From: Afipia sp.
GTDB taxonomy: Bacteria; Pseudomonadota; Alphaproteobacteria; Rhizobiales; Xanthobacteraceae
DNA length: 64,000 nt
Assembly (NCBI GenBank): GCA_024707075.1
Contig: JANQAK010000001.1
Location: 62,001-126,000 of the forward strand
Direction of reading: 5' to 3'
The notes below the pieces were generated by a model. It saw only the letters and a program-made list of their open reading frames with translations. It was not told the origin of the DNA and did not search any database. Both the position numbers and the translations under genes were made by a program. Shown in pieces: positions 24,937 through 62,222 of the stretch; the first letter of the stretch is position 1, and the number at the start of each line of letters is the position of its first letter.

Positions 24937-26461
<1,525 letters not shown>

Positions 26462-30788: not shown

Positions 30789-30797
30789 CGTGTTGAC

Positions 30798-31670: not shown

Positions 31671-31674
31671 GCTG

Positions 31675-40117: not shown

Positions 40118-40126
40118 CAACCAGCC

Positions 40127-45556: not shown

Positions 45557-46528
45557 TTAACCACGGATCATATCGACCGTGGTCCCTGCGTCCCCCAAGT
45601 CAACCTCCGCTGTCTGCAAACTTGACGGCCTGCCGTCCGGAGGATCTGATGGAGCCCTTCCCACCTGCTGCGTCCCGAATGCCGGAAAGAAGGGCGCAAC
45701 CACGTACTGGCGGAAAAAATATCCCCACATGCTGCGATGTATAAGGCGAGGATCGATATAAGGCGCAAGCTTCTCGTGCACGGGTCGCAATTTGCTCCAG
45801 TGCGTGCCGGGCGTCTCGTGATGCGCCGCGTGCAGGCCGTTGTTGAACAGCAGGAAATTCAGAAGTCGGCCGTCCCAATTGCGCGAATGGTTGAAGTCAG
45901 ACCACGGATCCGTATGCACATGCTGCTCGTAATTGAACAACATGATCGTCCACAGTGCGGAGAAGGCGGGCAGGAGAAACGCCATGCAGTAGAGAAACAG
46001 GCCCGCCCGCAGGCCATACAAGGCGATTGCCAGATATGCCAGCGCGATGTGGGTGGTCGCGAAGAACACATACTGAAAAACGATCTGGCGGTAGAGCGGC
46101 CCGTTCTTTTCTCGCGCCTTGACGATGAACGAGCGGATCGGAACGCTCTGCCAGTAACTCGAAACGAAAAAGTACGTGGCCGCGATGAAAAGGGTGTGCT
46201 TGTTGGAATGCCGCCAGGTGATCGTCGCATCGCCCGCGCGATTGACGTACTTGTGATGGTTCATGTTGTGCGTGGGTATCCAGGCGAAAGTCGGATACCC
46301 GTAAAAAATAGAAATCCAGTTGGCGAAGAAGTGATTGGCCTTCGCACTCTCGAATGTCGGGCAATGATTGTGGTTGTGAGCGATCACGCCGCAGGCCAGC
46401 GCAAAGTAGCAGCTTATCGGCCAGACATAGGGCGCGAGCGACGGAAAAGCATATTGGGCCGCAGCCAGCCCCGTGGCGAGCACAATCCAGAGGATCGTGC
46501 GATAATCCGCAGTAACGCGAGGGTGCAT
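45557..46528 (-). CDS. Membrane fatty-acid desaturase/hydroxylase-family enzyme
   Basis: A 323-residue di-iron membrane enzyme. Three histidine boxes are complete: HNHNH (residues about 52-56), HNMNHHKYVN (about 86-91) and LHAAHHE (about 242-247), and four helices surround them. The family introduces double bonds or hydroxyl groups in acyl chains using oxygen and a reductant. Its place near a serine-palmitoyltransferase-like gene and a ketosphinganine-reductase-like gene suggests the substrate may be a long-chain amino lipid or its acyl group. The ATG at 46528 follows an in-frame TTG. The C-terminal 45 residues are polar, Pro-rich and unlike the core. Confidence 0.82.
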   Translation of the reverse strand: MHPRVTADYRTILWIVLATGLAAAQYAFPSLAPYVWPISCYFALACGVIAHNHNHCPTFESAKANHFFANWISIFYGYPTFAWIPTHNMNHHKYVNRAGDATITWRHSNKHTLFIAATYFFVSSYWQSVPIRSFIVKAREKNGPLYRQIVFQYVFFATTHIALAYLAIALYGLRAGLFLYCMAFLLPAFSALWTIMLFNYEQHVHTDPWSDFNHSRNWDGRLLNFLLFNNGLHAAHHETPGTHWSKLRPVHEKLAPYIDPRLIHRSMWGYFFRQYVVAPFFPAFGTQQVGRAPSDPPDGRPSSLQTAEVDLGDAGTTVDMIRG

Positions 46529-46705
46529 CAAAGGACCTTCTCGACAATCAGATCGGCTCCGACAGCCGGTGGAGCGCGGAATTGAACTGCCTGAGAAATA
46601 TCATAGGCGGAACAGAATTGCTGGCAACAGGGTCGGATGACGCCAGCCGGCGCGATCGACCCTTGGCACGTCCGAGCAAGGAAGGCCGTCGCGCCAATAC
46701 GGCGG

Positions 46706-47503
46706 CTATACCCGCTTGAGCACCGCAGCCACCAGCGATCGAGGCGCCAGCCCCGCGAGGACGGCAAGGAATGAGAACTGCCAGGGAACCACGATCCTCT
46801 CCACTCCCTCTTCAACCCGCTTCCGAATGATCGCCGCCGCACGTTCCGCGGAAATAAGGAAAGGCTTCGGCGCATCCATGCCATGGTTCATGGGCGTATC
46901 GATGAATCCGGGCGAGACCAGCGTGATTTTGACGTTGTATTTTGCAAGCCGGAGGCGAAGCGCCTCCGAATACATCGCCAGCCCCGCCTTGGTGGCGGAA
47001 TATGACGGCGCCATCGGGAGGGGAAATTGCTGTGCGATCGATCCGATCAGGACTATCCGGCCGCTGGTCCGGGCTGCCATCAATTCGCCCGCGAGAGCGG
47101 CGCCGAGCATGGGGGCCAGGAAGTTCACCTCCGACACCTCCTTCACCCGCTCAGTCGTCTCGCTGGCGAAATCCGGCGAAGAAACGCCCCCTATGCCTGC
47201 ATTCAGGAAAAAAGTATCGATTGCCGCCTCGGCATCGAGACGCCGGATTTCCGCGAGGAAGCGATCAGTGTCGCGAATATCCAGGCTGATGGTCTGAACC
47301 TCCGCCCCCTTTGCACGGCAACGCTCCCCAATCCGAGCGAGCCGTTCCTCACTTCGGCCCATCAGAACGACGTCTATTCCCTTCGCCGAATAGGCCTCCG
47401 CCAATGCCGCCCCCAACCCGCTGGAAGCCCCCGTGATCAATATTCTGCGCAATGCAACCCCCGCCGCGCTACGGCTGTTGCAATCTGACCCGTCCCCCTG
47501 CAA
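46706..47503 (-). CDS. Short-chain dehydrogenase/reductase, possible 3-ketosphinganine reductase
   Basis: A classical SDR of about 265 residues: cofactor motif ITGASSGLG, LSM-type NAG motif (FFLNAGIGG), and active site with S in VLIGSIAQQF and Y-x-x-x-K in SYSATKAG. The first 18 residues may be untranslated, since only TTG-type codons start the frame. A hydrophobic C-terminal segment (QFSFLAVLAGLAPRSLVAAVL) suggests membrane association, as in 3-ketodihydrosphingosine reductases and DHRS-type enzymes. In this cluster, reduction of the keto product of the alpha-oxoamine synthase is the most natural reaction, but this is inference from neighbours. Confidence 0.78.
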   Translation of the reverse strand: MQGDGSDCNSRSAAGVALRRILITGASSGLGAALAEAYSAKGIDVVLMGRSEERLARIGERCRAKGAEVQTISLDIRDTDRFLAEIRRLDAEAAIDTFFLNAGIGGVSSPDFASETTERVKEVSEVNFLAPMLGAALAGELMAARTSGRIVLIGSIAQQFPLPMAPSYSATKAGLAMYSEALRLRLAKYNVKITLVSPGFIDTPMNHGMDAPKPFLISAERAAAIIRKRVEEGVERIVVPWQFSFLAVLAGLAPRSLVAAVLKRV

Positions 47504-47558
47504 TTCATATCCGGATGGCCGCCCACGGGATTTTCATTTCCGGCTTTGAGAACATCTG

Positions 47559-48711
47559 ATGCTGAATGTCACAAAAGAAACGAGACCTGTCGATATCAGG
47601 CAAGTGAAGACACGCAAGGATTGGCGCGATTTCCATACTCTTCCATATCGCGTTTACAGAAACGATCCATACTGGATACCCCCGCTCCTGCTTGAAAGAA
47701 AATTTCATTTTCAGGCGAAGCACAATCCCTTCTTTCAGCATGCAAAGGCCGAATTCTGGATCGCTTACCGGGACGGAGTGCCAGTCGGCCGCATCACAGC
47801 GCAGATCGATCAGCTTCATCTCGACCGGCATCGGGATGCCACCGGACATTTCGGGTTTATCGAGGCTGTCGACGATCCTGCCGTCTTCGGCCGGTTGCTG
47901 ACGGCTGCTGAATCCTGGACTCCGCGAGTCCGGTATTCGCAGGATCGTCGGACCCGTCAGCTTTTCCCTTTGGGATCAGCCCGGCCTGCTTGTTGACGGC
48001 TTCGATGCATCGCCGAGCGTGATGATGAACTACAATCATCGGTATTTTGAGCAGCACATTACCGCCGCGGGCTACTGCCCCGTGCAGGATTTGCTGACCT
48101 ATGAGTATGACGGAAGATTGCCATTTCCCGATCGTGCAATGCGGCTTGTCGAATGGGCTCGAAAGCGTAACAGCATCACAGTCCGGCCCATTCGAAAGGA
48201 CAGCAAGAATATCGATCAGGAGATCGCGTTGCTACTCGATATCATAAATGATGCATGGTCCGACAATTGGGGCTTCGTCCCGATGACGAAAGCTGAGATT
48301 GCCGACCTCGCCACCATTTTCAAAATCCTGTTACGACCGGGTGATGTGGCCATTGCGGAATACAACGGGGCGTCCGTCGCCTTCGCGCTCATCATGCCCA
48401 ACCTGAATGAGGTCATTCGCGATCTCGGCGGGAAGCTCTTTCCGTTCGGCTGGGCCAAGATCTTGTGGCGCCTCAAAATCAGAAAACCGTTCACCGCGCG
48501 GATGCCGCTCATGGGCGTACGAAAGGCGCTTCAAAGCTCTCCGCTCGGCGCTGCCCTCGCCTTAATGGTGATTCAGGAGACACGGGTATTTAATATCGCA
48601 AACGGCACCCCGATCGGGGAGTTGTCCTGGATTCCCGATCAAAACGAGGGCGTGAAGAATGTGATTGATCTCGTCGGGGCCGCACAGAAAAAAGCGATAC
48701 CGGCTATTTGA
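47559..48711 (+). pseudogene. GNAT-type acyltransferase, possible bacterial ceramide-synthase relative, frameshifted
   Basis: The first frame (ATG 47559) encodes WRDFHTLPYRVYRNDPYWIPPLLLERK and AKAEFWIAYRDGVPVGRI, a GNAT-like start. It loses phase at about 47917-47920. Removing one base (the A in TGGACTCC) gives ESWLRESGIRRIVGPVSFSLWDQ and joins the second frame (MMNYNHRYFEQHITAAGYC to the stop at 48711), for about 383 residues in total. The phrase RIVGPVSFSLWDQPGLLVDGFD is typical of a large family of GNAT-like N-acyltransferases with two related halves. A GNAT-family enzyme is known to act as ceramide synthase in Caulobacter; homology here is suggested only by family and neighbours. It converges with the alpha-oxoamine synthase gene. 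Confidence 0.78.
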
Positions 48712-48759
48712 AAAGCCGCTTGGCTAAAGATCGCAGGCCGTTCGACGCTGAATGCCTGT

Positions 48760-49974
48760 CTAGAAAACAGATTCCATCGCGGGCGCAGCCTGAAAATCCT
48801 GCTCCTTGAGAACAGCGATGGCCTTGTCGATATCTGCTTCCCGGTGGCGGCTTGAAAGAAAGAATCTGATGCGGGGCAGATCCTTGGGCACCCCTATATG
48901 TACGATCGGCGGTGCGTAGATGTCTTTCTTCAAAAGCTCCTGGGACGCGAGCATCGTTGAACGTAGGTCGCCGAACATCACGGGCACCACAGCTCGGCCT
49001 ATAGCAGGACCGGTGTTCAATCCGGCGGCACGGGCTTTCGCCAGGAACATTTCGGATACGACTCTCAGTTGCTCCGGAAGTTCGGGTTCGGCAGCGATGA
49101 TGTCGAGTGCGGCATGAGCTGTCGCTGTTATGACGGGAGACAGACCCACGCTGTAGACAAAGCCCGAAAGCGTGAACCTCAACCAGTCAATAATCTCCTG
49201 CCTGGCGCAAAGAAATCCTCCGCAGGATACGAGTGCCTTGGAGAGGGTTCCGACAATGAGATCGATGTCGTTTGGATCTTCGCCAAAATGATCGCTGATC
49301 CCACGCCCCTGTTTGCCAAGTACACCGAATGAGTGCGCTTCGTCCACTAATAGCCAGGCGTTATGCTGGTACTTCAGCTCGAGCAGCTTGGGGAGATCGG
49401 GAATGTCTCCATCCATGCTGTACAGGCCTTCCACAACAATAAGGCAATTGCGGAAGCTGCCGCGCTTTTCCTTGAGAATGGATTCCAGATGCTCAAGGTC
49501 GTTGTGCCGAAAGGCGACAAGTTCAGCCTTCGCGTTCTTTGCACCAGCCAAAATGCTATTGTGGCAAAGCTCGTCGATCAGAAGCAGATCCTTCACACCA
49601 AGCAGATGCGGGATGATCGTTAGATTTGTGAGATAGCCGCTGACAAGCGTGAGGCTGGCTTCCACACCAATGAAATCCGCGACAGCATGCTCGAACTCGG
49701 AATGCATCGAGCGCTCGCCGCCAACGAGCCGGGAACCGAGCGCACCGGCGCCGTGGCGCTCGAGCGCCTCGGCCGAAGCCTTCTTGATTTCCGGGCGATC
49801 CGACAAATCGAGGTAGTCGTAATTCGCGAAACTAATGAGCGATTTTCCACGCGACTGTGCATCGCTCCGCAGGCGATCTAAAGGGACAAACCAGGGATTA
49901 CCGCTATCAAGTATTGATTTGCCTGCAAGGCGCGCACGCTTTGAGGCGAACTCCAAAAGAGACCCTGACCCCAT
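48760..49974 (-). CDS. PLP-dependent alpha-oxoamine synthase, probable serine palmitoyltransferase
   Basis: A 404-residue fold-type I PLP enzyme. Key residues are visible: His138 in DELCHNSIL, Asp211 and His214 in LLVDEAHSFGVLG, and the Schiff-base Lys246 in VGTLSKALVSCGG. Family members condense an amino acid with an acyl thioester (SPT: serine plus palmitoyl; BioF: alanine plus pimeloyl; KBL: glycine plus acetyl). The absence of biotin genes, and a delta-4-desaturase homologue and reductase close by, favour serine palmitoyltransferase making 3-ketosphinganine. It is the last gene of a minus-strand series ABC-rSAM-LptF-LptG-SPT. No acyl-carrier-protein gene is adjacent. Confidence 0.82.
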   Translation of the reverse strand: MGSGSLLEFASKRARLAGKSILDSGNPWFVPLDRLRSDAQSRGKSLISFANYDYLDLSDRPEIKKASAEALERHGAGALGSRLVGGERSMHSEFEHAVADFIGVEASLTLVSGYLTNLTIIPHLLGVKDLLLIDELCHNSILAGAKNAKAELVAFRHNDLEHLESILKEKRGSFRNCLIVVEGLYSMDGDIPDLPKLLELKYQHNAWLLVDEAHSFGVLGKQGRGISDHFGEDPNDIDLIVGTLSKALVSCGGFLCARQEIIDWLRFTLSGFVYSVGLSPVITATAHAALDIIAAEPELPEQLRVVSEMFLAKARAAGLNTGPAIGRAVVPVMFGDLRSTMLASQELLKKDIYAPPIVHIGVPKDLPRIRFFLSSRHREADIDKAIAVLKEQDFQAAPAMESVF

Positions 49975-50115
49975 TCCAATAATCCACCCCGCCCTTGATA
50001 ATACCTACGTTATTACGAAATCTGCTTATTGAAATCACGGATTTTTCACGCGACCCCCGATTGCTCAATTTTCGTGCAATATTCCGGCTCCGTCAAACCC
50101 CTTGTGGGGATGGGA

Positions 50116-51369
50116 TCATGAATGTGACCGTCCTGGAAGCCCTCCAAACAGCTTGCGAAGCAACCCCGATATGCCCTCCCCGGTGCCGAGGGCATACGTC
50201 AACGTCAACACCGTCGTTGCGACGGCGATGAGAACACAAGGAATGGACCAGGCCACAATGCCGGGCGAGACGTAGCCGTACCCGCCCAGCAAATTGATGG
50301 CCCGCAAGGCGACATGCACAACGTACCCGATCAACGCCAGCATGATCACACGCTGGAAGGAGCTTCCATGGCGCAGAAAAAACAATGACAGGGCGCTTGC
50401 GAGAAGGATCATGCTCCCCGGAAGGAACCAGTCCGCATAACGAACCTGAATCATCATCCGGTAAATGCGGGCATCAAAGACGCCGCCTGGCGAGCCCGCG
50501 AGCGAGTGAAGAACAACCTGAGGCAGGTACGCCGGACTTATATCCAAGTGGCTCACCCACAGCGGATCCATTCCAAGATCGGCTCGCGCTTCGCCCGTCT
50601 GCGGAGATACTTCGACCGCAAAACCGCGCGAGCCGGTTCCATCCGCCACCCAAAGCCTGCCGTCCTTAATCAGCCAAAAGCTTGTGCCCGGCTCCGGACT
50701 GGCCGAGGCCGCCGTGAGCACTTTCCGAAGCTGCCCATCGTCTCCCGTCGCGAAGACGGTCAAGTCCCGCAACACTGGTGAGGGCCCGTATTCGATACGG
50801 GCCCTCACCAGAGCGTCCTTCGAAGCGAACCACCTTTGTCCCCTGTCGATGGTTCGGTCGGCCCTGCGGCCGTCATCGCCGAGCCGGCCGGAAATCTGGG
50901 CCATCATCGCCATTGGGCGCAGAAACGTGTCCAAGGTGAACTGTACACCTCCGAACATAATTCCCAGCAGCACTGCGGGAACGACACACTGGAAGGGCGA
51001 GCGGCCGGTGTTCGAAATCATGAGGCGCTCTCGTCCCACCGTCATCGCAACTTCTGCCGAAAGCACGCCCAGGAAGCATCCGATCGGCAGCAGGCGCGTT
51101 GCTATATCGGTGCACCTGAGCAGGGCATACCACGCCAGCCGCAGCGGAATGTCGAAGCCGGTCGCGGCAGGCGACGCAGCGAGCAGTTCACGGACCTGCG
51201 TGGATACGTCAATGGTCAGAGCCGCGATCAGCAATCCGGCAAGCACAACAAAGATATGCTGCACATAAACCTGAAACGTATATCGGGTGTACAATCCAAA
51301 AAACGCCAGCCGCGCGTTGCGGCGTGGCCGCACCGCGCTTCCACGCAACCGTTCGAGAACGGCGCTCAT
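50116..51369 (-). CDS. LptG-like permease (YjgP/YjgQ family)
   Basis: A 417-residue protein from the ATG at 51369, which overlaps the previous stop (ATGA). It has three helices at each end around a periplasmic beta-jellyroll: LYTRYTFQVYVQHIFVVLAGLLIAALTID, ALLRCTDIATRLLPIGCFLGVLSAEV, the soluble region (about 150-290), then WFLPGSMILLASALSLFFL and two more helices. This is the YjgP/YjgQ layout of LptF and LptG, which with LptB extract lipopolysaccharide from the inner membrane. Because it is in a lipid-synthesis cluster and not beside lptA/lptC or ostA, it may serve another lipid. In-frame codons upstream of the ATG lie inside LptF. Confidence 0.82.
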   Translation of the reverse strand: MSAVLERLRGSAVRPRRNARLAFFGLYTRYTFQVYVQHIFVVLAGLLIAALTIDVSTQVRELLAASPAATGFDIPLRLAWYALLRCTDIATRLLPIGCFLGVLSAEVAMTVGRERLMISNTGRSPFQCVVPAVLLGIMFGGVQFTLDTFLRPMAMMAQISGRLGDDGRRADRTIDRGQRWFASKDALVRARIEYGPSPVLRDLTVFATGDDGQLRKVLTAASASPEPGTSFWLIKDGRLWVADGTGSRGFAVEVSPQTGEARADLGMDPLWVSHLDISPAYLPQVVLHSLAGSPGGVFDARIYRMMIQVRYADWFLPGSMILLASALSLFFLRHGSSFQRVIMLALIGYVVHVALRAINLLGGYGYVSPGIVAWSIPCVLIAVATTVLTLTYALGTGEGISGLLRKLFGGLPGRSHS

Positions 51370-52571
51370 GCGCGCGACAAGCCCGGCTTGACTAAAGCAT
51401 TCTGTGCAAGCAACAGCCACATTGCGCCTACCGCCAAAATGGCAAGCGACGCGATGATCGGGGACAGGATTCCAGCCAGAAGCCCGAAACCGGCGGTCTG
51501 CTCGACGAGCACGCCAAACAAAAGATCGACGCACATCAAAAGAGCGCAGGCCACGGGAAGTGCGGCAACGTGTGTGGTCCGATTTGTGAACACAATCGCT
51601 ATTCCAGCGATCAGTGGCGCCAGCAGGCAAAGCAGGCTCCGGCTGATTCGGCGTCCAAGCTCGTACGCATCATTTGGACCAGGGCGCACGGCCGCCGGCC
51701 CCATGCCTACAAGATCCAGGAAAGTGCGTTCCGACGGATGCGAGCCGCGAGGATCGAACGCGAACAGTTCGTTGACTTCCAGTTCCTGAGTCAGATTACC
51801 GACCTGGGTGCTTGAGACAGGCTCAAACGAGGTGATCCCTGAGCATTTCGGACAATGCTCTGAAGCCGCTGCTTCAGCCTCGGCGGGTTTTGCAATCGAC
51901 GCAAACCACGTTGAAGCGAAGTCCTGCAGATGAAGCGTCATCGTGCCGTCGTCGCGTGGCCCTTCAAGCGATGCCTGCTTGGCGATGACCGCCTGCTCGT
52001 CATCACCTACGACCCGATGCAGGAAAAGACGGCGGGTGTCTGATTTCGTATTTGGGCCGGCAAATACCGTGTACTGGCCGAAACCATAAAATTGTCCTGC
52101 CGAAATTCCGCCCCGCAAAGCCACATAGTGGGAGTCAAAAAGCAGTTGTCGCTGACCAAATACCGCAGCCGGCGAGACGATGCCCGAGATGACAAGCGAC
52201 AAAATTTGCGCCGCCAGTCCGATGCCTACAGCTAACCAAAGAAACTTGTACGAGCCGATTCCCATTCCCGATAAAATGAGAAGCTCCCGATCCTCTCGAA
52301 ACCGCAGTGTGACCCGGTAAACCGCAACCAAGAGCGCGAGCGGAATGGCCAACCCGAATACTTCGGGCGCGCGCAGGAATAAAAGCGCAAATATCGTTTC
52401 AAAGCTCGCGTTCTGAGCCAACGCGGAACGCAGGACATCGTTCAGCTTCTCGGTCATGAAGATCGCTTCGATGAGAAGAACGACGAGCGCAGCCTGAACG
52501 AGAACCCGCGTCAGAAACTTGACGACGTAGAGCCGGGGCAAGGCAGGTCCTTTCCGATTGGGCATTAGCAT
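51366..52571 (-). CDS. LptF-like permease (YjgP/YjgQ family)
   Basis: A 401-residue protein with the six-helix YjgP/YjgQ layout: PRLYVVKFLTRVLVQAALVVLLIEAIFM, then IFALLFLRAPEVFGLAIPLALLVAVYRVTLRFREDREL, an element resembling the coupling helix that contacts LptB (FREDRELLILSGMGIGSYKF), a large periplasmic domain (about 150-290) and three C-terminal helices. Two cysteines in SEHCPKCSG are unusual in the jellyroll. ATGs at 52571 and 52565 are equally possible, and an upstream extension to 52679 would overlap the radical SAM gene. It pairs with the LptG-like gene and the LptB-like ATPase as a complete inner-membrane exporter core. Confidence 0.8.
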   Translation of the reverse strand: MLMPNRKGPALPRLYVVKFLTRVLVQAALVVLLIEAIFMTEKLNDVLRSALAQNASFETIFALLFLRAPEVFGLAIPLALLVAVYRVTLRFREDRELLILSGMGIGSYKFLWLAVGIGLAAQILSLVISGIVSPAAVFGQRQLLFDSHYVALRGGISAGQFYGFGQYTVFAGPNTKSDTRRLFLHRVVGDDEQAVIAKQASLEGPRDDGTMTLHLQDFASTWFASIAKPAEAEAAASEHCPKCSGITSFEPVSSTQVGNLTQELEVNELFAFDPRGSHPSERTFLDLVGMGPAAVRPGPNDAYELGRRISRSLLCLLAPLIAGIAIVFTNRTTHVAALPVACALLMCVDLLFGVLVEQTAGFGLLAGILSPIIASLAILAVGAMWLLLAQNALVKPGLSRA

Positions 52572-52611
52572 CGCCCCCGCTTCAAAACGCGTTCGAGTGC
52601 GAACAAGATAA

Positions 52612-54358
52612 TCACCCGACGGCGATCCTTTTCGGAGCACCGTGCGTGTTGGGAATCTTCGCAGCGAACTCGGCGACAAAACCCTCGTGTACGGTTTCCT
52701 CTGGTGCCACGGGCGTCAGTGCAAGGTCGGTATAAGCCTTGACGGCCGGATCAGCGAGAATCTTGCGGCGAAGCCCCCGATAGTGCGCGAACAGCCAAAT
52801 CCACCGGACCGCGCTTTTGACGATCTCACCAAATCGGGCAGGATAAAATACAAGGGGATTGACGACCGGCATTACATGCCGCCGCTGGGTTCTGACCTTG
52901 CGGCGAAACAACCCGAATTGCAACGGGTGAACGTTCTCGATGCGAACGGCGCCGGAAAAAAAGCGTGAGATCGTCGATCAGTTTCCGCTGCGACCGGAGG
53001 TTGCTGACAGAGGCGCGGCGTATGAGCGTTTCAACGTGACTATCGGTGTAGTAAAGCGACCACGCATCGCGATAGACTTTCTCCAGCGTCGCTCTGTCCA
53101 TGGTGGGATGATCGGCGCATGCGTGCTCGAGATCGTACCGGTTCATGTCCGAATCCATCGAAACACCGGCCATGTACATGCGCTTGTGATCCTCCGAACC
53201 CGGCAAGGGCGTCAACAGGAAGAACTCAAGAATATCGATCGGCAGCTCACGCTGGATCGTTTCGATATCCCGCGCAATGGATGCGGGCGTGTCGGTCGGA
53301 AATCCGAGAATGTAGCCGGCACATGTGATGACACCGGAATGCCGCCATGCGAGCAGCATCTCGCGATATTCCCAGATTTTGTTCTGGCGCTTCTTGCTGC
53401 CCATCAGGGACTCTGGATTGATGTTTTCCAGCCCGATAAACACCGAGATGCATCCGGCGCGCGCAACCTTCTCGATAAATCCAGGAATTCGGTGACACAG
53501 GGTATCGACCTGAAATATGAGCGACGGCTTGAATCCCTCATTCTCCCGCAACCAGATGATACGATCCAGAATCGACTCCCAATTCCGGTTTCGCGCAAAA
53601 TTGTCGTCCGTGACAAAGAAGTTCGTCACGCCCTGCGCGGCGTTGGCGCGAATGATCTCCTCCACGTCGTCCGCCGTTCGGTACCGGGACTTCCGGCCCT
53701 GAACGTTGATAATCGTGCAGAAGCTGCACTGAAACGGACAGCCGCGTCCCGCATCGAAACTGGTGAAATCAGTGACCTGCCGGCGGATATTCTCGGCCGG
53801 AAGAATGGGAATTTGGGCGCCGTCGAGATTGGGAAGCTCGTGGAGGCAGTTGTAAATCGGACGCAACTTGCGTTCGAATGCATCGCGAAGCAGATTTTCC
53901 ATCTGCCCTTCGGCTTCGCCCGCGAACAGCGATACCCCCATATCTAGAACCTCCTGGATATCTTCGGGCAACGCGGGCAGCATCGACAGGCAACCGCTGA
54001 CATGAAAGCCGCCAATGACGACGGCGATGTTTTTGTCGCGAAACTGGCGGGCAATATCGACCGAGCGGGGAAACTGGTTCGACTGCACGCCGACCAGACA
54101 AATCAGGCCTGCGCCTGCCTCCTCGATCTGACGTGCGATGCGCTGGCAATTGACGACCGTGTTGCACTCGTCGATGGCAACGACCTCAATTTCGATATCC
54201 GGTCCGAATATCCGGACGTCCGCAGAATGGCGCACGAGACCGTAAACACTGGCCAGGCTGTTGGCCGGGATCAGGGAGCGGCGCCATTGAATCACATAGC
54301 CGTCGTCGTCGTAGCGCGACGGCTTGATCAAGAATACTTTAAATCTGCCCCCGCTCAT
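52612..54358 (-). pseudogene. B12-binding-type radical SAM protein of unknown function, frameshifted near the end
   Basis: From the ATG at 54358 (MSGGRFKVFLIKPSRYDDDGY) there is an N-terminal Rossmann-like cobalamin-type domain (LICLVGVQSNQF, VVIGGFHVSG), then the radical SAM core with CPFQCSFC (CxxxCxxC) in DAGRGCPFQCSFCTIINVQG, and downstream blocks TDDNFARNRNW and GYILGFPTDTP. The frame shifts in a seven-A run (plus strand 52956-52962). With six, it continues SGAVRIENVHPLQFGLFRRKV and NPLVFYPARF to a stop at 52612, a typical family C-terminus, for about 581 residues. The cobalamin ligand histidine is not evident. It lies upstream of the LptF-like gene in the same operon. The reaction is unknown; methylation or rearrangement of a lipid or sugar is possible. 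Confidence 0.8.
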
Positions 54359-54582
54359 GACATAGCCTTCGGCCATATTGCTCAAACAAAAGGAGAGTTT
54401 GACACGGTTCTTTCGCTAAATCTAACTCGATTTGCCGGTGAATTTCACCCCGATGCGCGTTGCGTAGCTTGTTTTATCGGCATTTCGCCGCCGCTATCCG
54501 CGATCTGCTGGCCTTTGCTGCGGCGGAAGACATTCCCGCCCTCGGACCGACCGACGCCTCCGAGATGATCTCCGGATGCGAG

Positions 54583-55347
54583 CTAGAGTCTGAATCCTGC
54601 GCCGAGGTAAATCCGCCGGACCGACGGATCATTGACGATGTCCGCCGGCGGCCCATGGGCGAGTACGTAGCCGGACTGGATGATATAGGCGCGGTCGACA
54701 AGACCGAGCGTCTCGCGCGCGTTGTGGTCTGTGATCAGGACGCCGACGCCACGGTCGGCGAGTGAGCCGACCAGCCTGCGGACATCGCTGACGGCGATCG
54801 GATCAACGCCTGCGAACGGCTCATCCAGCAACACGAAGCTCGGCTCCCCGGCTATCGCCAGCACAATCTCACAGCGCCTCCGTTCGCCTCCCGATAGCCG
54901 GGCGCCCACAGCATTGCGGACTTCCGACAGACCGAATTCCGACAGAAGAGAGTTGAGCGTCTTTTTCCTGCGGGCCGGGCTGCTCTCGATCGTTTCAAGC
55001 ACCATCAGAATATTCTGCTCGACGGTGAGCGCCTTGAAGATCGAGGCTTCCTGCGTGAGATAGCTCAGGCCACGACGCGCACGTTCGAACAAGGCTGCGG
55101 CTGTCACATTCGCTCCGTCGAGGTGTACGGTTCCCCGGTCGGGCGTCACAATCCCGGCGAGCATTCCGAAAACGGTTGTCTTTCCCGCGCCGCCCGGGCC
55201 TATCAGGCCCACAATGTCCCCCCGCCGGACGTGAAGGCTGACATCCCCCACAACCGTTCGATCACCAAAAACCTTGGCCAGATTTCGAGCATCGAGCACT
55301 GTCGGAAAGCCCGTGTTTTTGAGGCGGTTAGGAGAAGCCCTTAGCAT
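54583..55347 (-). CDS. LptB-like ABC transporter ATP-binding protein
   Basis: A 254-residue ATPase with Walker A GPGGAGKTT, Q-loop YLTQEASIFKALTVEQNI (close to LptB YLPQEASIFRKLTVEENI), signature LSGGERRR, Walker B FVLLDEPFAGVDP and the H-loop in LITDHNARE. The Q-loop and ADIVNDPSVRRIYLG end fit LptB rather than other ABC groups. It would power the LptF/LptG-like permeases encoded three genes downstream on the same strand. It is followed by a 224-bp gap before the radical SAM gene. An ATG at 55347 starts 90 bp from the divergent desaturase gene, so the two share a promoter region. Confidence 0.88.
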   Translation of the reverse strand: MLRASPNRLKNTGFPTVLDARNLAKVFGDRTVVGDVSLHVRRGDIVGLIGPGGAGKTTVFGMLAGIVTPDRGTVHLDGANVTAAALFERARRGLSYLTQEASIFKALTVEQNILMVLETIESSPARRKKTLNSLLSEFGLSEVRNAVGARLSGGERRRCEIVLAIAGEPSFVLLDEPFAGVDPIAVSDVRRLVGSLADRGVGVLITDHNARETLGLVDRAYIIQSGYVLAHGPPADIVNDPSVRRIYLGAGFRL

Positions 55348-55437
55348 GAGAAAGCTGGGTCAGGCCAATGGCTTCGAAGGGAAGTACTTCCCATCGACTT
55401 CGGCCCGTGGCAGGGTCGGATGTCGAAGGAACCCACC

Positions 55438-56409
55438 ATGACCAGCGCCTTTGATTTTTCCACGCCCGCCCAACCTCATCCCGAACGAACCAAAGCGATC
55501 CTGCGGCAACATCCGGATGTCCGCGATCTCATGGGCCGCAATCCCTGGACCGCGGCAATTCTGATTGCGGTTGTCCTGCTGCAGGTCGGCCTGGCGGCGC
55601 TCATGGGACACCTTGGAACAACGTATTGGTGGCTGGCGCTGATCGCGGCATATCTGGTCGGCGCTTTTGCCAACAACTGCCTTTACGTGATCATTCACGA
55701 AGCAACCCATAACCTGATCTTCAGGGACCGCAGGCTGAACAAACTGGCAGCGATCGCTGCCGATCTGCCAAATATCCTGCCGGCGGCAATCGGCTTCAGC
55801 ATCTGTCATCTGGAGCACCACGCCTATCAGGGTGACTACGACCGGGACGCCGACCTCGCCAGCCATTGGGAGGCAGATCTCGTCGGCAATCGCTGGTACG
55901 CCAAGGCGATCTGGCTGATTCTCTTTCCGGTTCTACAGGTCGCGCGGCCGGCCCGGTTTAGTTCGATATCTGTCATGAACCGATGGACAATCCTCAGTGT
56001 TGTCGCCGCCGTTACTTTCGACATCGCCATTGTCCTGTTTTGCGGCTGGAACGGCCTGCTTTATCTTGCTGCATCCGTCCTCTTCGCACTTGGACTGCAT
56101 CCCCTCGGCGCCCGCTGGATTCAGGAGCACTACACGCTCGATCCCAAACAGGAGACGTTCAGCTATTACGGCCCGTTGAATTTCCTCACCTTGAACGTCG
56201 GCTACCACAACGAGCATCACGACTTTCCTTCGATTCCGTGGAACAGGCTTCCCGCGCTTCGTGCGAAAGCGCTGGAGTTTTATGACACTCTTGAATCGAA
56301 ACAGTCGCTCTCTAGACTTTTGGCACAGTTCATTTTCGATCCGAGGTATTCACTGCACTCTCGCGTCGTCCGCGACCGGATGCAGGCGCAACCGAGTCCT
56401 GCAGCCTAA
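55438..56409 (+). CDS. Sphingolipid delta-4-desaturase-like membrane desaturase (DES/DEGS family)
   Basis: A 323-residue di-iron desaturase. The three histidine boxes are HEATH (about 87-91), HLEHH (about 124-128, in SICHLEHHAYQGDYDRDADLA) and HNEHH (about 257-261, in NVGYHNEHHDFPSIPW). The last stretch, with the following RLPALRAKALEFYDTL, closely parallels eukaryotic dihydroceramide delta-4-desaturases, which carry NVGYHNEHHDFPNIP. These enzymes insert the 4,5-trans double bond of the sphingoid base. The ATG at 55438 follows AAGGA by seven bases; an in-frame ATG at 55420 lacks a site. Together with the SPT-like gene, this is the strongest evidence for a sphingolipid-like pathway. Its stop overlaps the next gene tail-to-tail by four bases. 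Confidence 0.87.
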   Translation: MTSAFDFSTPAQPHPERTKAILRQHPDVRDLMGRNPWTAAILIAVVLLQVGLAALMGHLGTTYWWLALIAAYLVGAFANNCLYVIIHEATHNLIFRDRRLNKLAAIAADLPNILPAAIGFSICHLEHHAYQGDYDRDADLASHWEADLVGNRWYAKAIWLILFPVLQVARPARFSSISVMNRWTILSVVAAVTFDIAIVLFCGWNGLLYLAASVLFALGLHPLGARWIQEHYTLDPKQETFSYYGPLNFLTLNVGYHNEHHDFPSIPWNRLPALRAKALEFYDTLESKQSLSRLLAQFIFDPRYSLHSRVVRDRMQAQPSPAA

Positions 56410-57152
56410 AGAGCATTCCCGAAATCAAGCTCACTGGTAAAAAGCATCTCTCGTTTGCTCATCAGGCGAGCCAGGTTCTCGCGAATGCTGTCCACGGTTT
56501 CCGGATGATCGAAGTCGAACGGGTGCATCGCGACACGCAGAATGTCTTCGTTGTGCCAGTGCCTGGTGAGGAGCGGTGCCGCGATGGCCGATCCGTGTTT
56601 GCGCAACCAGGATCGCGTCGCCCACGTAATAACGGGACTCCGCAGGCTTTTCCCCGTTGCGACGGAAAATAGCCGGCTGTGGTCTTCGGTGTAGTGAAGA
56701 CTGCTGTCGCGCAGGATCGAGAATAGGTGTCGATTGAAAAGCCATGCCGGCGCAACGAAGCCCGTCGGATCGCTCCGCAGGCATTGACGGAAAACAGCAA
56801 GTCCATCCTGAATGCGACGTTGCTGGTCGATCGCTTCAAGCGGAAGAAACTCCCCTTCGCTCCCTGTCAAAAAACGGCGCCGGAAGCGATCTCGCGGGGT
56901 TAAAGCAACCGAAGCCGGCGCCTCGTCCGCGTGTGTATACCCATGAAGAAACCACTCAACATCAAAAGCGCGATCACGGCGGCACCAGGCGACAAAATCC
57001 GGACTCAGATCGGACCGCCCAAGGGAATGATAATCCGGGATGAGTAGGAAGCTTATTTTGTCGACACCGAGTGCCACACACAGCGCTTCGGCCTTCTGCA
57101 GCCTAGGCAAATGAAAGGGCGTCACGTCATGGAGTGAAACCAGAAGCTTCAC
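56406..57152 (-). CDS. DUF2334-family polysaccharide-deacetylase-like protein
   Basis: A 248-residue NodB-like-fold protein. The start MKLLVSLHDVTPFHLPRL has the catalytic Asp with His (HDV), followed by LLIPDYHS and WFLHGYTHAD (H-x3-H metal ligands), and a later HPFDFDHPETV with the closing His. DUF2334 proteins are predicted metal-dependent deacetylases of N-acetyl sugars or other amides. The GTG at 57152 overlaps the corrected stop of the upstream glycosyltransferase (GTGA), so the two are coupled. In this setting it may deacylate a sugar on the lipid or the amide of the lipid itself; both are inferences. No signal peptide is present, so it would act in the cytoplasm. Confidence 0.75.
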   Translation of the reverse strand: MKLLVSLHDVTPFHLPRLQKAEALCVALGVDKISFLLIPDYHSLGRSDLSPDFVAWCRRDRAFDVEWFLHGYTHADEAPASVALTPRDRFRRRFLTGSEGEFLPLEAIDQQRRIQDGLAVFRQCLRSDPTGFVAPAWLFNRHLFSILRDSSLHYTEDHSRLFSVATGKSLRSPVITWATRSWLRKHGSAIAAPLLTRHWHNEDILRVAMHPFDFDHPETVDSIRENLARLMSKREMLFTSELDFGNAL

Positions 57153-58401
57153 GACGACCTGCTCGCGATATTCCCGCTCAGACGCGTCACGTAAAGGTCG
57201 GCGATGCGCTTCATCGCCAGATCAATCGTTCCCTGCTTCAACGCGAACTCTCTGGCGGCTGCGGCTTCCTCGATCCAATCGCACTCCATCGCCCGCATTA
57301 CCGTGCGCAGGAAATCGTCGCTATCGTTTGCTCGAAAGATGAACCTGGAATTGGCGTCGCGCAGCAGTTCCCCGGTCCCCCCGTATCGGGACCGACAACA
57401 ACAAGGCCCCGCGCCATACCCTCGACCACTGCAAGGCCAAAACTTTCAAACGGCCCCGGCGCAAGCAATATGTCGTGATCGTCGTAGATTTTTCGTACGT
57501 CCAGTGGGTCTTCGACAAATCCTCTGTAGTCAAAGCGGGGATGGTTCAGGCCGGCGAAAAAATCCTGCGCTCCGCCCCGGCCAATCACGGTCACGCGGAC
57601 ATAATCGAGCGCCAGAAGACGTGGAACGATATCGCGGATCAGTTGTATGCCTTTTTCGATGTTCAGACGACCGACGAACAGACACCTGATTTCGCTTCCA
57701 TTGGCGCTCGCTTTGCGAGTGGCAAGCGGCACCTCAAGATAAATGCGCGGAATTCCGAGAGGCACAACCGCCACCGGCACGCTCTCATCCTCAAGGCGGC
57801 GCTGCATGACTCGTGAGGAAACAACTGTTAGATCGTAGGCGCGCTGCACCCGGTAAAACAGCGATGCCAGGGGCCGGAGAACAGCCGCCTTGCGCAAACC
57901 TTGAAACGCTCCCCTGTTCGCCCAAGGCAAGAGGTGCGTGAGGATGGGGTCGCTGTGGAAGTAGCTGACCAAAAGCCCCTGATAGAGACCAAGCTTCTTG
58001 ATCAGCAGGCAGAACAGTCCCGAAAGCCACGGCTCTCCCACCTCGATAACATCGGGTCTGCTCCCGCGAATGACACGATAGACGCCTGCGTAATCCAGCA
58101 TGAATCGATAGCCGCTCGGATCGCGCGATACGACCGGCCCGTAGATTTCAGCTGTCGATACGTTTTGATCGCTGTCCCGCCAACTGAATCGCGAGCCCGG
58201 ATGGACCAGAACGTACCGATGATCAGTCTGGCCGCTGAAATGCTTGATCCGCGCCTCGTAGAACGCACGAATGCCGCCCGCGCGGCGCGAAAAGAAAGTG
58301 TTGATGTCCAGGAAGGAAAAACTCTTGCGGCCGCCCTGCATCTGCGTCTGCGGCGTGTCGTCCAGAACCGTTGCGAGCTGACCACCTGGATTTGGGTTCA
58401 T
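57149..58401 (-). pseudogene. GT4 glycosyltransferase, frameshifted in the C-terminal domain
   Basis: From the ATG at 58401 (MNPNPGGQLATVLDD) the frame encodes a GT-B enzyme: SFLDINTFFSRRAGGIRAFYEARIKHF (acceptor side), GRPDVIEVGEPW, RCLFVGRLNIEKGI (start of the donor-binding half) and APGPFESFGLAVVEGMARGLVVVGPDTGG, the GT4 E-x7-E motif. The frame is lost in a run of six C (57377-57382). One more gives DTGGTGELLRDANSRFIFRAND and a stop at 57149, about 417 residues in total, a normal length. The corrected stop overlaps the DUF2334 start, which supports the repair. It would add a sugar from a nucleotide donor at the cytoplasmic face. Confidence 0.82.
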
Positions 58402-58418
58402 GAGGCCACGCCCGAATC

Positions 58419-59621
58419 TTATAGCGTCGTGCCGCCGAGCACGGAACGGTAATAGCCCAGCATGCGATCCATGGCTGCGTCCCATGAAAAATTCAGGCTT
58501 CCCTCGCGGGCGACCGCCGCCATGCGGCGGCGCGCGACCGCGTCGGCCACCAGGGTGGACAAATGGTCAGCAAAATCTCCGGCACTGTTTGTTTCAGCCA
58601 TGAAGCCGGTCACCCGTGGAATCACAAGCGAGCGGCTACCCGTCGCGAAGGCGCAAACGGCCGGCAGTCCGGACGCCATCGCTTCCAGCGTGACATTCCC
58701 AAAAGTCTCGGTCTGGCTAGGGAAGAAGAAAATGTCCGACGACGCATACGCCTGCGCAAGATCCTCACCGTGCAGGAACCCAGGAAATATCGTATCCGGC
58801 AGCCTCTCCTCAAGCCACGCTCGCTCGGGCCCGTCACCGACGGCGATGCTTCGGTGAGCAACATTTCGCCGCTTCAATTCGTTCAACGTATCGGCAAGCA
58901 GGTCGAGACCCTTTTCGCGAACGGATCTGCCGACAAAAACAATCGCCACCTGATCCGGGGCAATCCCGTAACGCGCGCGCCATTCCTGGGAACGCTTGGC
59001 GGGATGAAATCTCTCGACATCCACACCGCGAGGCCATGCTGCGAGATTGTCCGCGAAACCCTGTTCGCGCAGAACATCAGCCATCGAGTCTGACGGTACG
59101 TAAACCTGCACGCAGTTGCGATAGAAAAAGCGAAGATAATTTTCGACAGGCTTTTGAAACAGCTTCAGCGGCGCGTAAAACTGCACGTATGTGTCGTAGC
59201 GCGTGTGATACGACGCAACCACCGGCACCTTCAGTCTTTGACCCAGTCGCAAGGCTTGATATCCAAGAATATCCGGCACGGCGATGTGAATGATGTCCGG
59301 ATCGAACTCCTTGATGTCCGCCTGCAGGCGGCGCGGGAGGCCAAGCGCGAGCCGGTATTCAGGCCTCATTGGGAGAGCGACCGACGGCACCGGCGTGAGA
59401 TCGCCGCGATGCTCGAGAGCGGGACGGCCAGCGACGGGAGCAAATATCCGCACCTCGACACCCTTGTCTTCGAGATGGCCCACCAAACGATTGAGCGTCA
59501 GCGCGATGCCGTCCTTGATGTAGTTATAGGAACTTGTGACGAGGCAGACTCGCATCGGACGAGAAGCCGACGCCCGCGGTACAGCCGGGGCGAATGCAGC
59601 CGATGCCTCTGCCATATTCAT
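58419..59621 (-). CDS. GT4 glycosyltransferase (MgtA/SqdX-like)
   Basis: A 400-residue GT-B enzyme from the ATG at 59621 (MNMAEASAAFAP). The acceptor half has MRVCLVTSSYNYIKDGIALTLNRLVGHL and VVASYHTRYDTYVQFYAPL. The donor half has IVFVGRSVREKGLDLLADTL and FFFPSQTETFGNVTLEAMASGLPAVC with the E-x7-E motif. The ASYHTRYDTYV pattern recalls glycolipid glycosyltransferases of the MgtA and SqdX groups that use diacylglycerol-type acceptors. A lipid acceptor is therefore plausible. It is the first gene of a minus-strand run ending with the DUF2334 gene, and is divergent to the membrane protein gene at 59914 across 292 bp holding no other recognisable feature. Confidence 0.85.
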   Translation of the reverse strand: MNMAEASAAFAPAVPRASASRPMRVCLVTSSYNYIKDGIALTLNRLVGHLEDKGVEVRIFAPVAGRPALEHRGDLTPVPSVALPMRPEYRLALGLPRRLQADIKEFDPDIIHIAVPDILGYQALRLGQRLKVPVVASYHTRYDTYVQFYAPLKLFQKPVENYLRFFYRNCVQVYVPSDSMADVLREQGFADNLAAWPRGVDVERFHPAKRSQEWRARYGIAPDQVAIVFVGRSVREKGLDLLADTLNELKRRNVAHRSIAVGDGPERAWLEERLPDTIFPGFLHGEDLAQAYASSDIFFFPSQTETFGNVTLEAMASGLPAVCAFATGSRSLVIPRVTGFMAETNSAGDFADHLSTLVADAVARRRMAAVAREGSLNFSWDAAMDRMLGYYRSVLGGTTL

Positions 59622-59913
59622 GGGTTTGAAATCAGCGAAAGAAGAGAGGCTGCAATCATCAACGAATATCCCTTTGGACAGGTGTCTTGTGCCCGATGGC
59701 CGCCACAACGGCCCGATAATTTGGCGGACCATACCAGTCCGTTGCCACCCCGAGAATGGCCGAATAGCCCTGGGCGGGCAGACCTTAGGCGGCCGAATTA
59801 ACAACAATCCCCGCGTTCTCAGCCCCTTTTCGGCTCCCGCAACGGCTCCGTCGTGGACAACGGCGCCAAATGATGGGATCGTTTGGCGGGGTCAGTGAGC
59901 ACGTCCGGGGCGT

Positions 59914-60888
59914 ATGAACACCGTCGTACAGGTGGGGGATGAGTTCGGGGAAGCGGCCGAAAAGCCGAGGTCCGCGCCGTTCCATTTTGCCATGCAGGCG
60001 TTGCGCTGGGGTGTCCCGGTTATCCTGCTTGGCTTCATCGGGCATCAGCTTGCCTCGATCGGCTGGCTGGAGATCTGGCGAGCGAAACCGACTGCATTGA
60101 GCTTCTATTTGCTGGTGCTGGTACCCTTCTTCGTCCAGCCCGTGGCTGATCTCCTGATCTACCGAAATCTCTGGAAGGTCGAAAAGGCTCTGCCGCTTTC
60201 GATATTCCTGCGCAAGCGCTACCTCAACGCGATGGTGCTCGATTATTCGGGAGAGGCCTATTTCTACTTCTGGGCTCAACACAGGCTTAGCCTTGAGAAG
60301 ACCGTCCTGCTGCACGCCATCAAGGATAGCAACATTCTCTCGGCAGGTGCCGGTCTCGCAATGGTCTGGCTGGTCCTTCTGCTCCTTTCGGCATCGGGCG
60401 GCATCACGCTTCCGACTTTCTTCTCAACGCATTTGTGGACCTCGATTGCGATCGCCTCCCTTCCGCTGATATTCTGTCTCATTCTCGTGTTCGGGGGCCG
60501 TAAGGTCACGACCCTGAACCGGCAGCAGATCGCATCGACATTCACAATTCACCTGCTTCGGAGCGCCATCGCATTGGTGCTTCAGTTCGGCATCTGGTGG
60601 CTGTCGGGAGCACTTCCGACCGCGATTGCATGTCTTTATTTCGTGGCTTTGCGCCTTCTGATCTCGAGATTGCCGCTGCTGCCGAACAAGGATCTGCTGT
60701 TCGTGGGAACCGGCATTGCAGCGGCGAGTTTTCTGACACTATCAACGGAAGCTGTGGCCGCCGTTTTGATGATCACAATCGCGGTCGATCAGTTGCTGGG
60801 TTTCCTGCTTGTCGGCATGCCGTGGTTGCTCGGGCGGTTTTCATTTTCTCGGACGCAGAACCCCGAAAACGCATCTGCTGTCCGCTAG
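59914..60888 (+). CDS. Polytopic membrane protein of the UPF0104/LPG-synthase-TM type
   Basis: A 324-residue protein with about eight helices: ALRWGVPVILLGFIGHQLASIG, FYLLVLVPFFVQPVADLLIY, NILSAGAGLAMVWLVLLLLSA and others. The block LNAMVLDYSGEAYFYFWA at the cytoplasmic loop resembles the conserved S-G-E element of the UPF0104 (lysylphosphatidylglycerol synthase TM) superfamily, whose members include flippases and GT partner proteins. The assignment is tentative. It converges with the following glycosyltransferase gene, overlapping its 3' end by four bases. Confidence 0.55.
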   Translation: MNTVVQVGDEFGEAAEKPRSAPFHFAMQALRWGVPVILLGFIGHQLASIGWLEIWRAKPTALSFYLLVLVPFFVQPVADLLIYRNLWKVEKALPLSIFLRKRYLNAMVLDYSGEAYFYFWAQHRLSLEKTVLLHAIKDSNILSAGAGLAMVWLVLLLLSASGGITLPTFFSTHLWTSIAIASLPLIFCLILVFGGRKVTTLNRQQIASTFTIHLLRSAIALVLQFGIWWLSGALPTAIACLYFVALRLLISRLPLLPNKDLLFVGTGIAAASFLTLSTEAVAAVLMITIAVDQLLGFLLVGMPWLLGRFSFSRTQNPENASAVR

Positions 60889-62222
60889 ATCGCTGCCGAT
60901 CCCTCGTGCAGGGAAACAACGCGTTCCATTTCGGCCTGAAGAACGGTTCCATGATTGACGGCGTTGAAATCTTTTTCAATCCGGCGCCGGGCGGCGTCAC
61001 CTTGACGGCGTCGCAGGGTCTCGTCGCCGAAATACGCCAGACACGCGTCGGCAAGCCCCTTGATGTCCGGCGGAGCGCCCGTCACGAGTTTCCCCTCCAC
61101 GCCGTCGTCAATCATCTCGCCGATCCCGCCCATCCGGAAGGCGATAACCGGCTTTGACATGGCCATTGCCTCCATTACCGCGCGCGGCAGCGGATCGTCA
61201 TAAACGCTCGGCACAACAGCGACATCGAAATCGGCGACGTAGGCGCGAACGTCCGGGCGGAAACCGGCAAAGATGACCCATTCAGCCAGGCCGAGTTCAC
61301 GCACCAGTGCCCGGCATTCTTCAAGATGATCTGGGCGCATATCCTCTGGCGTATCGCCGAAGATCACAAACCGGCATCGCGCCCGTTGTTCATCCGTCAA
61401 CGCATCGATGACGATGCGTGCCGCCCTGATGAGTTCGATAAATCCCTTCCGCGGCAGAATACGGCCATGACTCCCGAAAACCACGGTCTGCGGCGCAAGG
61501 CCGAATTCATCGCGCAGAACCGGTTTGACGGCGCCGCTGTCAAACTCAGCAATATCCAGCGCGGTTTGGATGGCCCTGACCTTTTGCCGGCAGTGGGAAA
61601 ATTGCGTTTCGGTCGCGCGCGAGACGCAAATGATCGATCGAACGTTTCGACCCGCCGCAAGCGCGGCGTGCAGCCGCCGGATGGGCGGAGCCACGGAGGG
61701 ATAAAGAACATGCCAGATCACCGGCACGCCGGTGATTGCCGCAATCGCTCCGCCCGCAAAATTTGCGGTCGTTCCGTTGCAGAAAACGAGGTCGAATTTT
61801 TCCGTCCTCACCCGCTTGATAAGCCTCAGCATGGCTCCTGTGGCGCGGACCACATTCGCAACGGCGCGCGATGCCTTCAGTAAAATGGGGGCATCAAAGT
61901 CAGTCCGCTCCATCGGCCTTGAGACCGGCTCATAGATGTTTTCAATGAGATCAGGTTCAAAGAACAGATTCTCGGCGACGTTGGCGCTCTCCAGCCGGTG
62001 GCTGACTACCCCTTCCCGCGGGATCAGCGCCGTTCGGTGAATACGCTGTGGATCGAGAAATTTCAGCACGTATAGAATGGTTCGGCCCGGCCCGCCATTT
62101 CGTGACGTATCGTTGATGAAAAGAACGCGAAGCCTCCGGTCCCGCGCGTCTTGCGCAGACGATGGCTTGGGTTCAACTGTCCGCAAGACTGAACCGCTAG
62201 CTGGCGGTGATGGCAGTTGCAT
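60885..62222 (-). CDS. GT4 glycosyltransferase
   Basis: A 445-residue GT-B enzyme: RRLRVLFINDTSRNGGPGRTILYVLKFL, the acceptor loop PVIWHVLYPSVAPP, the donor half VVFGSHGRILPRKGFIELIRAARI, and the catalytic stretch VVPSVYDDPLPRAVMEAMAMSKPVIAFRMGGIGEMI with E-x7-E. Donor and acceptor are unknown. The first 30 residues are polar and may be unstructured. Its start overlaps the end of the upstream glycosyltransferase gene by 26 bases, suggesting coupled expression of consecutive transfer steps. Confidence 0.85.
   Translation of the reverse strand: MQLPSPPASGSVLRTVEPKPSSAQDARDRRLRVLFINDTSRNGGPGRTILYVLKFLDPQRIHRTALIPREGVVSHRLESANVAENLFFEPDLIENIYEPVSRPMERTDFDAPILLKASRAVANVVRATGAMLRLIKRVRTEKFDLVFCNGTTANFAGGAIAAITGVPVIWHVLYPSVAPPIRRLHAALAAGRNVRSIICVSRATETQFSHCRQKVRAIQTALDIAEFDSGAVKPVLRDEFGLAPQTVVFGSHGRILPRKGFIELIRAARIVIDALTDEQRARCRFVIFGDTPEDMRPDHLEECRALVRELGLAEWVIFAGFRPDVRAYVADFDVAVVPSVYDDPLPRAVMEAMAMSKPVIAFRMGGIGEMIDDGVEGKLVTGAPPDIKGLADACLAYFGDETLRRRQGDAARRRIEKDFNAVNHGTVLQAEMERVVSLHEGSAAI

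Follow-up and report, generated by a model that had tools for sequence, protein, structure and literature searches.

The stretch of DNA analysed here (the window) comprises 64,000 nucleotides of an Afipia sp. genome and corresponds to positions 62001–126000 of contig C5, in a genome of 5.3 Mb and 7 contigs. It contains a block of lipid-related genes, which includes an alpha-oxoamine synthase (AOS), a short-chain dehydrogenase/reductase (SDR), a GNAT-type acyltransferase gene with a broken frame, a DES-type desaturase and a second set of Lpt-like transport genes (Lpt2). With a probability of about 0.7, we read this block as a mosaic ceramide-type (Delta4-unsaturated) pathway that has an export module to itself and may be interrupted in this strain. 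Family-level gene identities, conserved linkage, clade membership and the break in the GNAT frame are seen directly. Gene families were assigned by Pfam/NCBIfam profile search of the window open reading frames (ORFs), and the genes of the block are as follows.

45557-46531, minus strand: second membrane desaturase/hydroxylase (PF00487)
46706-47503, minus strand: classical SDR, proposed 3-keto reductase with a KDSR/SgaC-like role (PF00106)
47559-48711, plus strand: GNAT-type acyltransferase, candidate ceramide synthase (CerS), frame broken at ~47,920; halves match one ORF of relatives
48760-49974, minus strand: AOS, proposed long-chain-base (3-ketosphinganine-type) synthase (PF00155)
50116-51630, minus strand: LptG2 permease of the second Lpt set (PF03739, LptF_LptG)
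51366-52679, minus strand: LptF2 permease of the second Lpt set (PF03739, LptF_LptG)
52826-54385, minus strand: radical SAM protein, between LptF2 and LptB2 (PF04055)
54583-55347, minus strand: LptB2, second LptB-type ATPase (TIGR04406)
55420-56409, plus strand: homologue of DES-type (sphingolipid Delta4) desaturases (PF00487 and PF08557)

An earlier note on this DNA, made from the sequence alone, had named an SDR, a second desaturase, LptB/LptF/LptG-like genes and a radical SAM gene here, and the profile searches confirm all of these assignments. Its larger proposal, that the block combines ceramide-type synthesis, DES-type desaturation and a dedicated Lpt-like export system, is supported by the conserved linkage and by the LptF/LptG tree described below.

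A DES-type desaturase linked to oxoamine synthases

The desaturase exceeds the cut-offs of both FA_desaturase (107.7 bits; cut-off 29.7) and Lipid_DES (PF08557; 38.8 bits; cut-off 23), and the string NVGYHNEHHDFP, quoted by the earlier note in calling this protein a delta-4-desaturase homologue, is present; that call holds. The histidines of its three boxes (HEATH 93, HLEHH 130 and HNEHH 263) are invariant in 7/7 aligned homologues, and Lipid_DES lies above its cut-off in 6/6 homologues scanned. Searches with the protein found nothing among PDB sequences at E ≤ 1e-2 (0.01) and no plasmid match at E ≤ 1e-20, and the 46 pattern matches in viral contigs included no relatives.

At E ≤ 1e-50, DES was found in 12 of the 347 genomes of our order sample, namely nine of one genus (g28), two of another family (f42) and the genome under study, and in 2 of the 385 genomes of our class sample, the latter count again including the own genome. 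Every one of the 12 DES genomes of the order sample also carries an AOS. This AOS belongs to the clade of the window AOS in three genomes and to a clade labelled serine palmitoyltransferase (SPT) in nine, six of them assigned by tree and three g28 sequences, absent from the first tree, counted on 95–98% identity to tree rows.

The closest AOS that we found (53–55% identity) lie in the two f42 genomes (L179, L180), each in an operon AOS-GNAT-DES-FA_hydroxylase in which DES follows AOS and GNAT. The DES proteins of these operons are 50–52% identical to that of the window, and in one of the two genomes a window-like SDR lies ~4 kb beyond DES. A DES gene adjoins GNAT at locus L185. In G720, the outlier of the class sample, there are two DES genes, of which one lies directly beside a GNAT gene; no AOS match (E ≤ 1e-4) was present in that 19.6-kb stretch. 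Within the genus of the window, 3 of 28 genomes have SDR and AOS adjoining, with an unbroken GNAT gene ~1 kb off.

A second set of Lpt genes

LptB2 scores 323 bits against TIGR04406 (cut-off 240). A separate, standard LptB is encoded elsewhere in the genome (G000:C5:1144647), as are standard LptF and LptG proteins. LptB2 shares 56% identity with the standard LptB of its own genome and 56–59% with LptB of g28. In the nine DES-carrying g28 genomes, SDR, AOS, LptG, LptF and GNAT occur together in one stretch (≤20 kb) in 9/9 cases, LptB being included in 7/9, and the GNAT gene sits between LptF and LptB. In a tree that took in five of the nine g28 AOS clusters, the window LptF and LptG each join LptF/LptG of these clusters (100/100), apart from the standard proteins, those of the own genome included. 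Because LptF2 and LptG2 group with their counterparts from AOS clusters and away from the standard pair, the assignment of a putative dedicated Lpt2-type exporter to this locus is well supported. The LptG2 ORF overlaps LptF2, and its Pfam domain starts only at residue 116; as listed, the ORF probably starts too far upstream, with the true start near 51.3 kb.

Phylogenetic position of the oxoamine synthase

The earlier note described an AOS with SPT-type residues. Membership in the AOS family (PF00155) stands. The residues concerned (H138, D211, H214, K246 and R370), which we take to be pyridoxal-phosphate-site residues common to the superfamily, are invariant in 12/12 aligned AOS-superfamily proteins, HemA- and BioF-labelled ones included, and hence are superfamily-wide; calling them SPT-type goes too far.

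We placed the protein in two trees. The first holds 74 of the 126 sequences collected; the other 52 looked nearly duplicate or incomplete and were removed manually, with no individual labelling. Here the window AOS falls inside an 11-row clade (100/99) that includes AOS from four loci at which a polyketide synthase (PKS)-sized ORF, or a frame resembling PKS, adjoins or surrounds the gene. The second tree has 45 rows, 40 hand-picked from the 126 and five, out of 16 plasmid hits, taken from named plasmid records. In this tree the window clade grows to 16 rows (100/100), and the SPT-, BioF-, HemA- and KBL-labelled rows form one group each. The window AOS lies outside the SPT-labelled clade, in its own clade beside the SPT rows, the two being on the same side of a branch supported at 95/91. 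The earlier note had proposed a phylogeny against SPT, BioF and KBL, and firm clustering with BioF or KBL was not found.

The labels in these trees have different origins. For BioF they derive from bio genes seen by eye alongside (L014 and L011; L125 and L126 for rows L096 and L097) and otherwise from place in the first tree, which is partly circular; likewise partly circular are the SPT labels, as four rows were scanned by curated models and the remainder named from the first tree. Rows labelled HemA and KBL carry sequence features that we take to mark those enzymes. Among the four SPT-labelled rows scanned, L195 (from the L098 locus) alone reaches a curated SPT cut-off (578/500 bits). For L187 (from one of the nine DES-carrying g28 genomes; 471/500, over a partial range), L018 (506/640) and L028 (447/640), an SPT model is the best hit but under its cut-off. 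The window AOS itself falls below the cut-offs of both KBL models, NF005394 (279/460 bits) and TIGR01822 (237/493 bits). Two further AOS-superfamily matches in the genome (E ≤ 1e-40) group with the HemA- and BioF-labelled rows.

A number of related loci were seen in passing. One g28 genome (G168; L192) has an SPT-labelled AOS cluster and also an AOS of the window clade (49% identity) amid genes that by eye resemble nucleotide-sugar genes. In two order-mates (L198 of G040 and L147 of G042), a GNAT gene, a weak LptF match and an AOS share one stretch; in G042 the AOS beside the GNAT gene is a long-branch one, and a different contig also encodes an SPT that reaches its curated cut-off (578 bits). 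A viral-contig search with the AOS returned 80 loci at 29–35% identity, which were not used in the analysis.

The reductase and the broken acyltransferase

The SDR contains the TGxxxGxG and YxxxK motifs. It is 36–41% identical to SDRs near AOS of the window clade at L200 (Acidisoma), L202 (Pseudomonas, ~5 kb away), L119, L122, L124 and L179, and only 26–28% identical to those of L201 (S. meliloti) and L204 (Shinella). The SDR of one g28 AOS cluster (L187, 8341-9159, plus strand) has KdsR (NF049977) as its top model, at 247.8 bits against a cut-off of 400; because of this best score, a KDSR-like reductase may occur in the g28 cluster too.

Both halves of the GNAT gene align to one continuous ORF in relatives, and 22/22 related GNATs that we extracted are without an internal stop; one of these, truncated at the end of the stretch extracted, proved to be a full frame in the genome. 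Compared with the GNATs of AOS-Lpt2 clusters (L148, L186, L187, L188 and L191), the N-terminal half shows 38–46% identity and the C-terminal half 31–35%. The predicted model of a relative from Archangium (mean pLDDT 71.8) matches GNAT enzymes in the PDB, tandem ones included (best E 2.3e-13; query TM 0.56), which suggests a GNAT-like fold. A PDB sequence search with two of the GNATs gave nothing at E ≤ 0.01, and neither half matches a Pfam/NCBIfam model at E ≤ 0.001. The GNAT-type acyltransferase of the earlier note is therefore borne out as to the predicted fold of a relative, and not as one intact gene. As assembled, the window encodes no single intact GNAT protein, and an intact ceramide synthase in this strain is unsupported.

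Proposed pathway and comparison with known systems

The substrates, the products and the direction of transport are inferred, as would be any continued running of the pathway in this strain. The AOS would act first, as a long-chain-base (3-ketosphinganine-type) synthase, and the SDR would reduce its product. The GNAT enzyme would then N-acylate the reduced base to give dihydroceramide, into which the DES-type enzyme would introduce the 4,5 double bond (or a hydroxyl group). Finally, LptB2-LptF2-LptG2 would extract the finished lipid from the inner membrane for transfer to the outer membrane; LptC/A/D are probably shared with the lipopolysaccharide machine. The desaturation and export steps are proposed on gene family and linkage. 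On its place in the trees, the AOS comes from a clade of capsule- and PKS-linked synthases, and in GNAT and Lpt2 the block is like the sphingolipid clusters of Caulobacter type as published.

The eukaryotic route runs from KDSR through ceramide synthase to DES1. The window resembles it in the proposed order of reactions and in the Lipid_DES domain of the desaturase, a likeness at domain level, and differs in having a GNAT-type N-acyltransferase. The rkp-1 locus of Sinorhizobium, the genes of which we take to be rkpA/G/H/J, resembles the window in that its AOS belongs to this wider clade and has an SDR after it. Unlike the window, rkp-1 has a 2502-aa PKS and Capsule_synth, and its SDR is 26% identical to that of the window. 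To our knowledge, most bacterial ceramides reported to date contain saturated bases.

The literature describes two further systems of this kind. In Caulobacter crescentus, a sphingolipid cluster (CC_1168-CC_1152) contains spt, acpR, cerR, aasR, cerS and LptC2/F2/G2, and LptC2, LptF2 and LptG2, which lie beside spt, have been proposed, untested there, to transport sphingolipids (PMC11324152). Going by this published description, both regions combine an AOS with an N-acyltransferase and an additional LptF/LptG pair. The window differs in that its AOS falls outside the clade of SPT-labelled rows, its reductase belongs to the classical SDRs, DES and LptB2 are present, and LptC2 was not detected. 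The second system, PfSgaABC of Pseudomonas fluorescens MYb115, which yields PKS-derived sphinganines, likewise has an AOS and a KDSR-like SDR, and SPT activity has been measured for SgaB, the PKS-paired AOS of SgaAB (PMC12134224). The wider clade around the window AOS takes in a PKS-AOS pair from Pseudomonas. In contrast to PfSgaABC, no PKS was seen in the window, and GNAT, DES and Lpt2 are added.

Each piece of the block is already known; the combination of AOS, GNAT and DES with Lpt2 is a new variation. The earlier note had considered the pairing of a DES1-like desaturase and an Lpt-like exporter with SPT notable. The AOS-DES pairing is indeed the less expected part, and an Lpt-like module beside spt was already on record in Caulobacter (PMC11324152). 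Literature searches on bacterial sphingolipid Delta4-desaturases, with most subscription journals outside their coverage, recognised no AOS-linked bacterial DES, which leaves absence unproven. A bolder generalization can be offered tentatively, with the odds somewhat against it: some bacteria of the order might make true 4,5-unsaturated (sphingosine-type) ceramides by means of an AOS of the capsule-lipid clade, a KDSR-like SDR, a GNAT CerS, DES and Lpt2 export, and the lipid carrier of the rhizobial K-antigen capsule might be a sphingoid lipid made by an RkpG-type AOS. If true, a DES that recurs in linkage with bacterial AOS and N-acyltransferase genes would provide bacteria with ceramides of the sphingosine type, and would offer a test bed for an enzyme called poorly characterised in mammals (PMC6920741). 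That an Lpt2 module accompanies AOS of two distinct clades speaks for the proposed existence of a separate Lpt-like route for sphingolipids, and the AOS clade ties rhizobial capsule genes to sphingolipid chemistry.

Alternative readings

Several observations weigh against a ceramide-type pathway. The best-scoring curated model for the AOS is that of BioF (TIGR00858; 333.5 bits, below the cut-off of 426.45), and the SPT models NF047599/47600/47603 all stay below theirs (280/500, 276/640 and 201/670 bits). Constraining the AOS clade to join the BioF rows makes the tree 5.75 log units worse and is not rejected (p-AU 0.179). Because the AOS has its own clade, lies on the SPT side at 95/91 and leaves the BioF constraint unrejected, it sits neither firmly with BioF/KBL nor inside the SPT clade; orthology to SPT is unsupported. 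The analogy with SgaB, whose sequence is not among our tree rows, is one of gene pairing, PKS-AOS pairs being found in the sister half of the clade; on this analogy the window AOS may have SgaB-type activity. In 25 of the 28 same-genus genomes searched, there is no AOS match near 50% identity. The co-occurrence of DES and AOS carries no significance value, because the AOS frequency in DES-less genomes was uncounted, and in the nine g28 genomes DES is located away from the AOS cluster. A sister relationship between LptB2 and g28 LptB was set aside, the LptB tree being without resolution although LptF2 and LptG2 are clear. No second LptC was found: the genome has a single match to PF06835, which scores 25.9 bits (cut-off 21) and lies near the standard LptB, ~1 Mb away, and because the LptC model scores weakly a divergent LptC2 may have escaped. 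Lastly, the GNAT gene is split over two frames (47559-47996 and 48019-48711), and with no other copy in the genome at E ≤ 1e-5 the sole copy detected is the frameshifted one.

This last point invites the reading, rather unlikely in our view, that the cluster is decaying. The broken GNAT would then leave the strain without ceramide, and the other genes would be on their way to loss or would make free long-chain bases only, all of which is compatible with the ceramide-type reading of the genes' purpose. Such decay would fit the presence of recombinase, integrase-core and defence genes, which lie 10–25 kb upstream and suggest a mobile region, and the lack of a second detected copy. Against it, the other ORFs are open across nearly their entire Pfam domains, and in each half of GNAT the frame stays open and similarity persists as far as the break, a pattern compatible with a sequencing error or a recent mutation. 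The break is thus either real damage or an error in sequencing (one assembly).

The main rival as to product involves the genes downstream, which are as follows.

56406-57152, minus strand: DUF2334 protein (PF10096), a neighbour, doubtful as a cluster member
57298-58485, 58419-59807, 60885-62222 and 62197-63357, minus strand: four glycosyltransferase ORFs, possible head-group or polysaccharide genes
59914-60888, plus strand: ORF without Pfam match amid the glycosyltransferase ORFs

The AOS and SDR could supply a surface polysaccharide with its lipid anchor, of sphingoid or keto-amine type, along the lines proposed for Sinorhizobium rkp-1, in which case the glycosyltransferases would belong to the system and the ceramide branch would be secondary. 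The four glycosyltransferases leave room for either a head group made of sugar or the anchoring of a polysaccharide; the earlier note's suggestion that the lipid is probably glycosylated is no more than an inference. Elsewhere, records of S. meliloti, Shinella and Pseudomonas, whose AOS fall in the sister half of the clade, show PKS-AOS pairs close to SDR and capsule genes, and Acidisoma sp. PAMC 29798 has the order SDR, AOS (52%), FA_hydroxylase within a capsule locus with glycosyltransferases. In addition, rkp-1 is reported to act in making the capsule lipid carrier (PMC4881576). However, neither a Capsule_synth (PF05159) match nor a PKS was found among the 30 window ORFs scanned, and GNAT, DES and Lpt2 are linked with AOS in ceramide-type clusters elsewhere. 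We consider a polysaccharide anchor unlikely.

That the AOS is a second BioF-like enzyme with unrelated lipid genes as neighbours is very improbable: despite the top BioF score and the unrejected constraint, trees and linkage led us to set aside a plain BioF or KBL, as the AOS clade stands apart from the BioF-labelled rows in both trees, is recurrently linked to GNAT, DES, SDR or PKS, and another AOS of the genome (C6:1538776) groups with those rows.

Other genes of the window

Returning to the proposed ceramide-type cluster, two genes that the earlier note had included in the module have unproven links to it. Relatives of the radical SAM protein (E ≤ 1e-50) occur in 12 of 61 genomes, own included; of 15 non-own hits, 12 neighbourhoods were fetched, and an AOS was near in just one (G042, ~11 kb off), so the gene was rejected as a core part. 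The second desaturase (45557-46531) was likewise rejected, having no tblastn counterpart in the loci compared; it is possibly an acyl-chain modifier.

Upstream of the lipid cluster lie genes for a Terminase-like RNaseH protein (21035-22438), a serine recombinase (24857-26461) and an integrase core (35530-36315), and with its recombinase and integrase-core genes this region is possibly mobile. CBASS-like defence genes at 29331-33110 (minus strand) encode a SAVED-domain protein and a 770-aa ORF with ThiF and SMODS domains (a fused ThiF). A carbamoyltransferase (PF02543/PF16861) is encoded at 38285-40120 (minus strand), along with a weak GDSL-lipase match and then two large ORFs without Pfam match.

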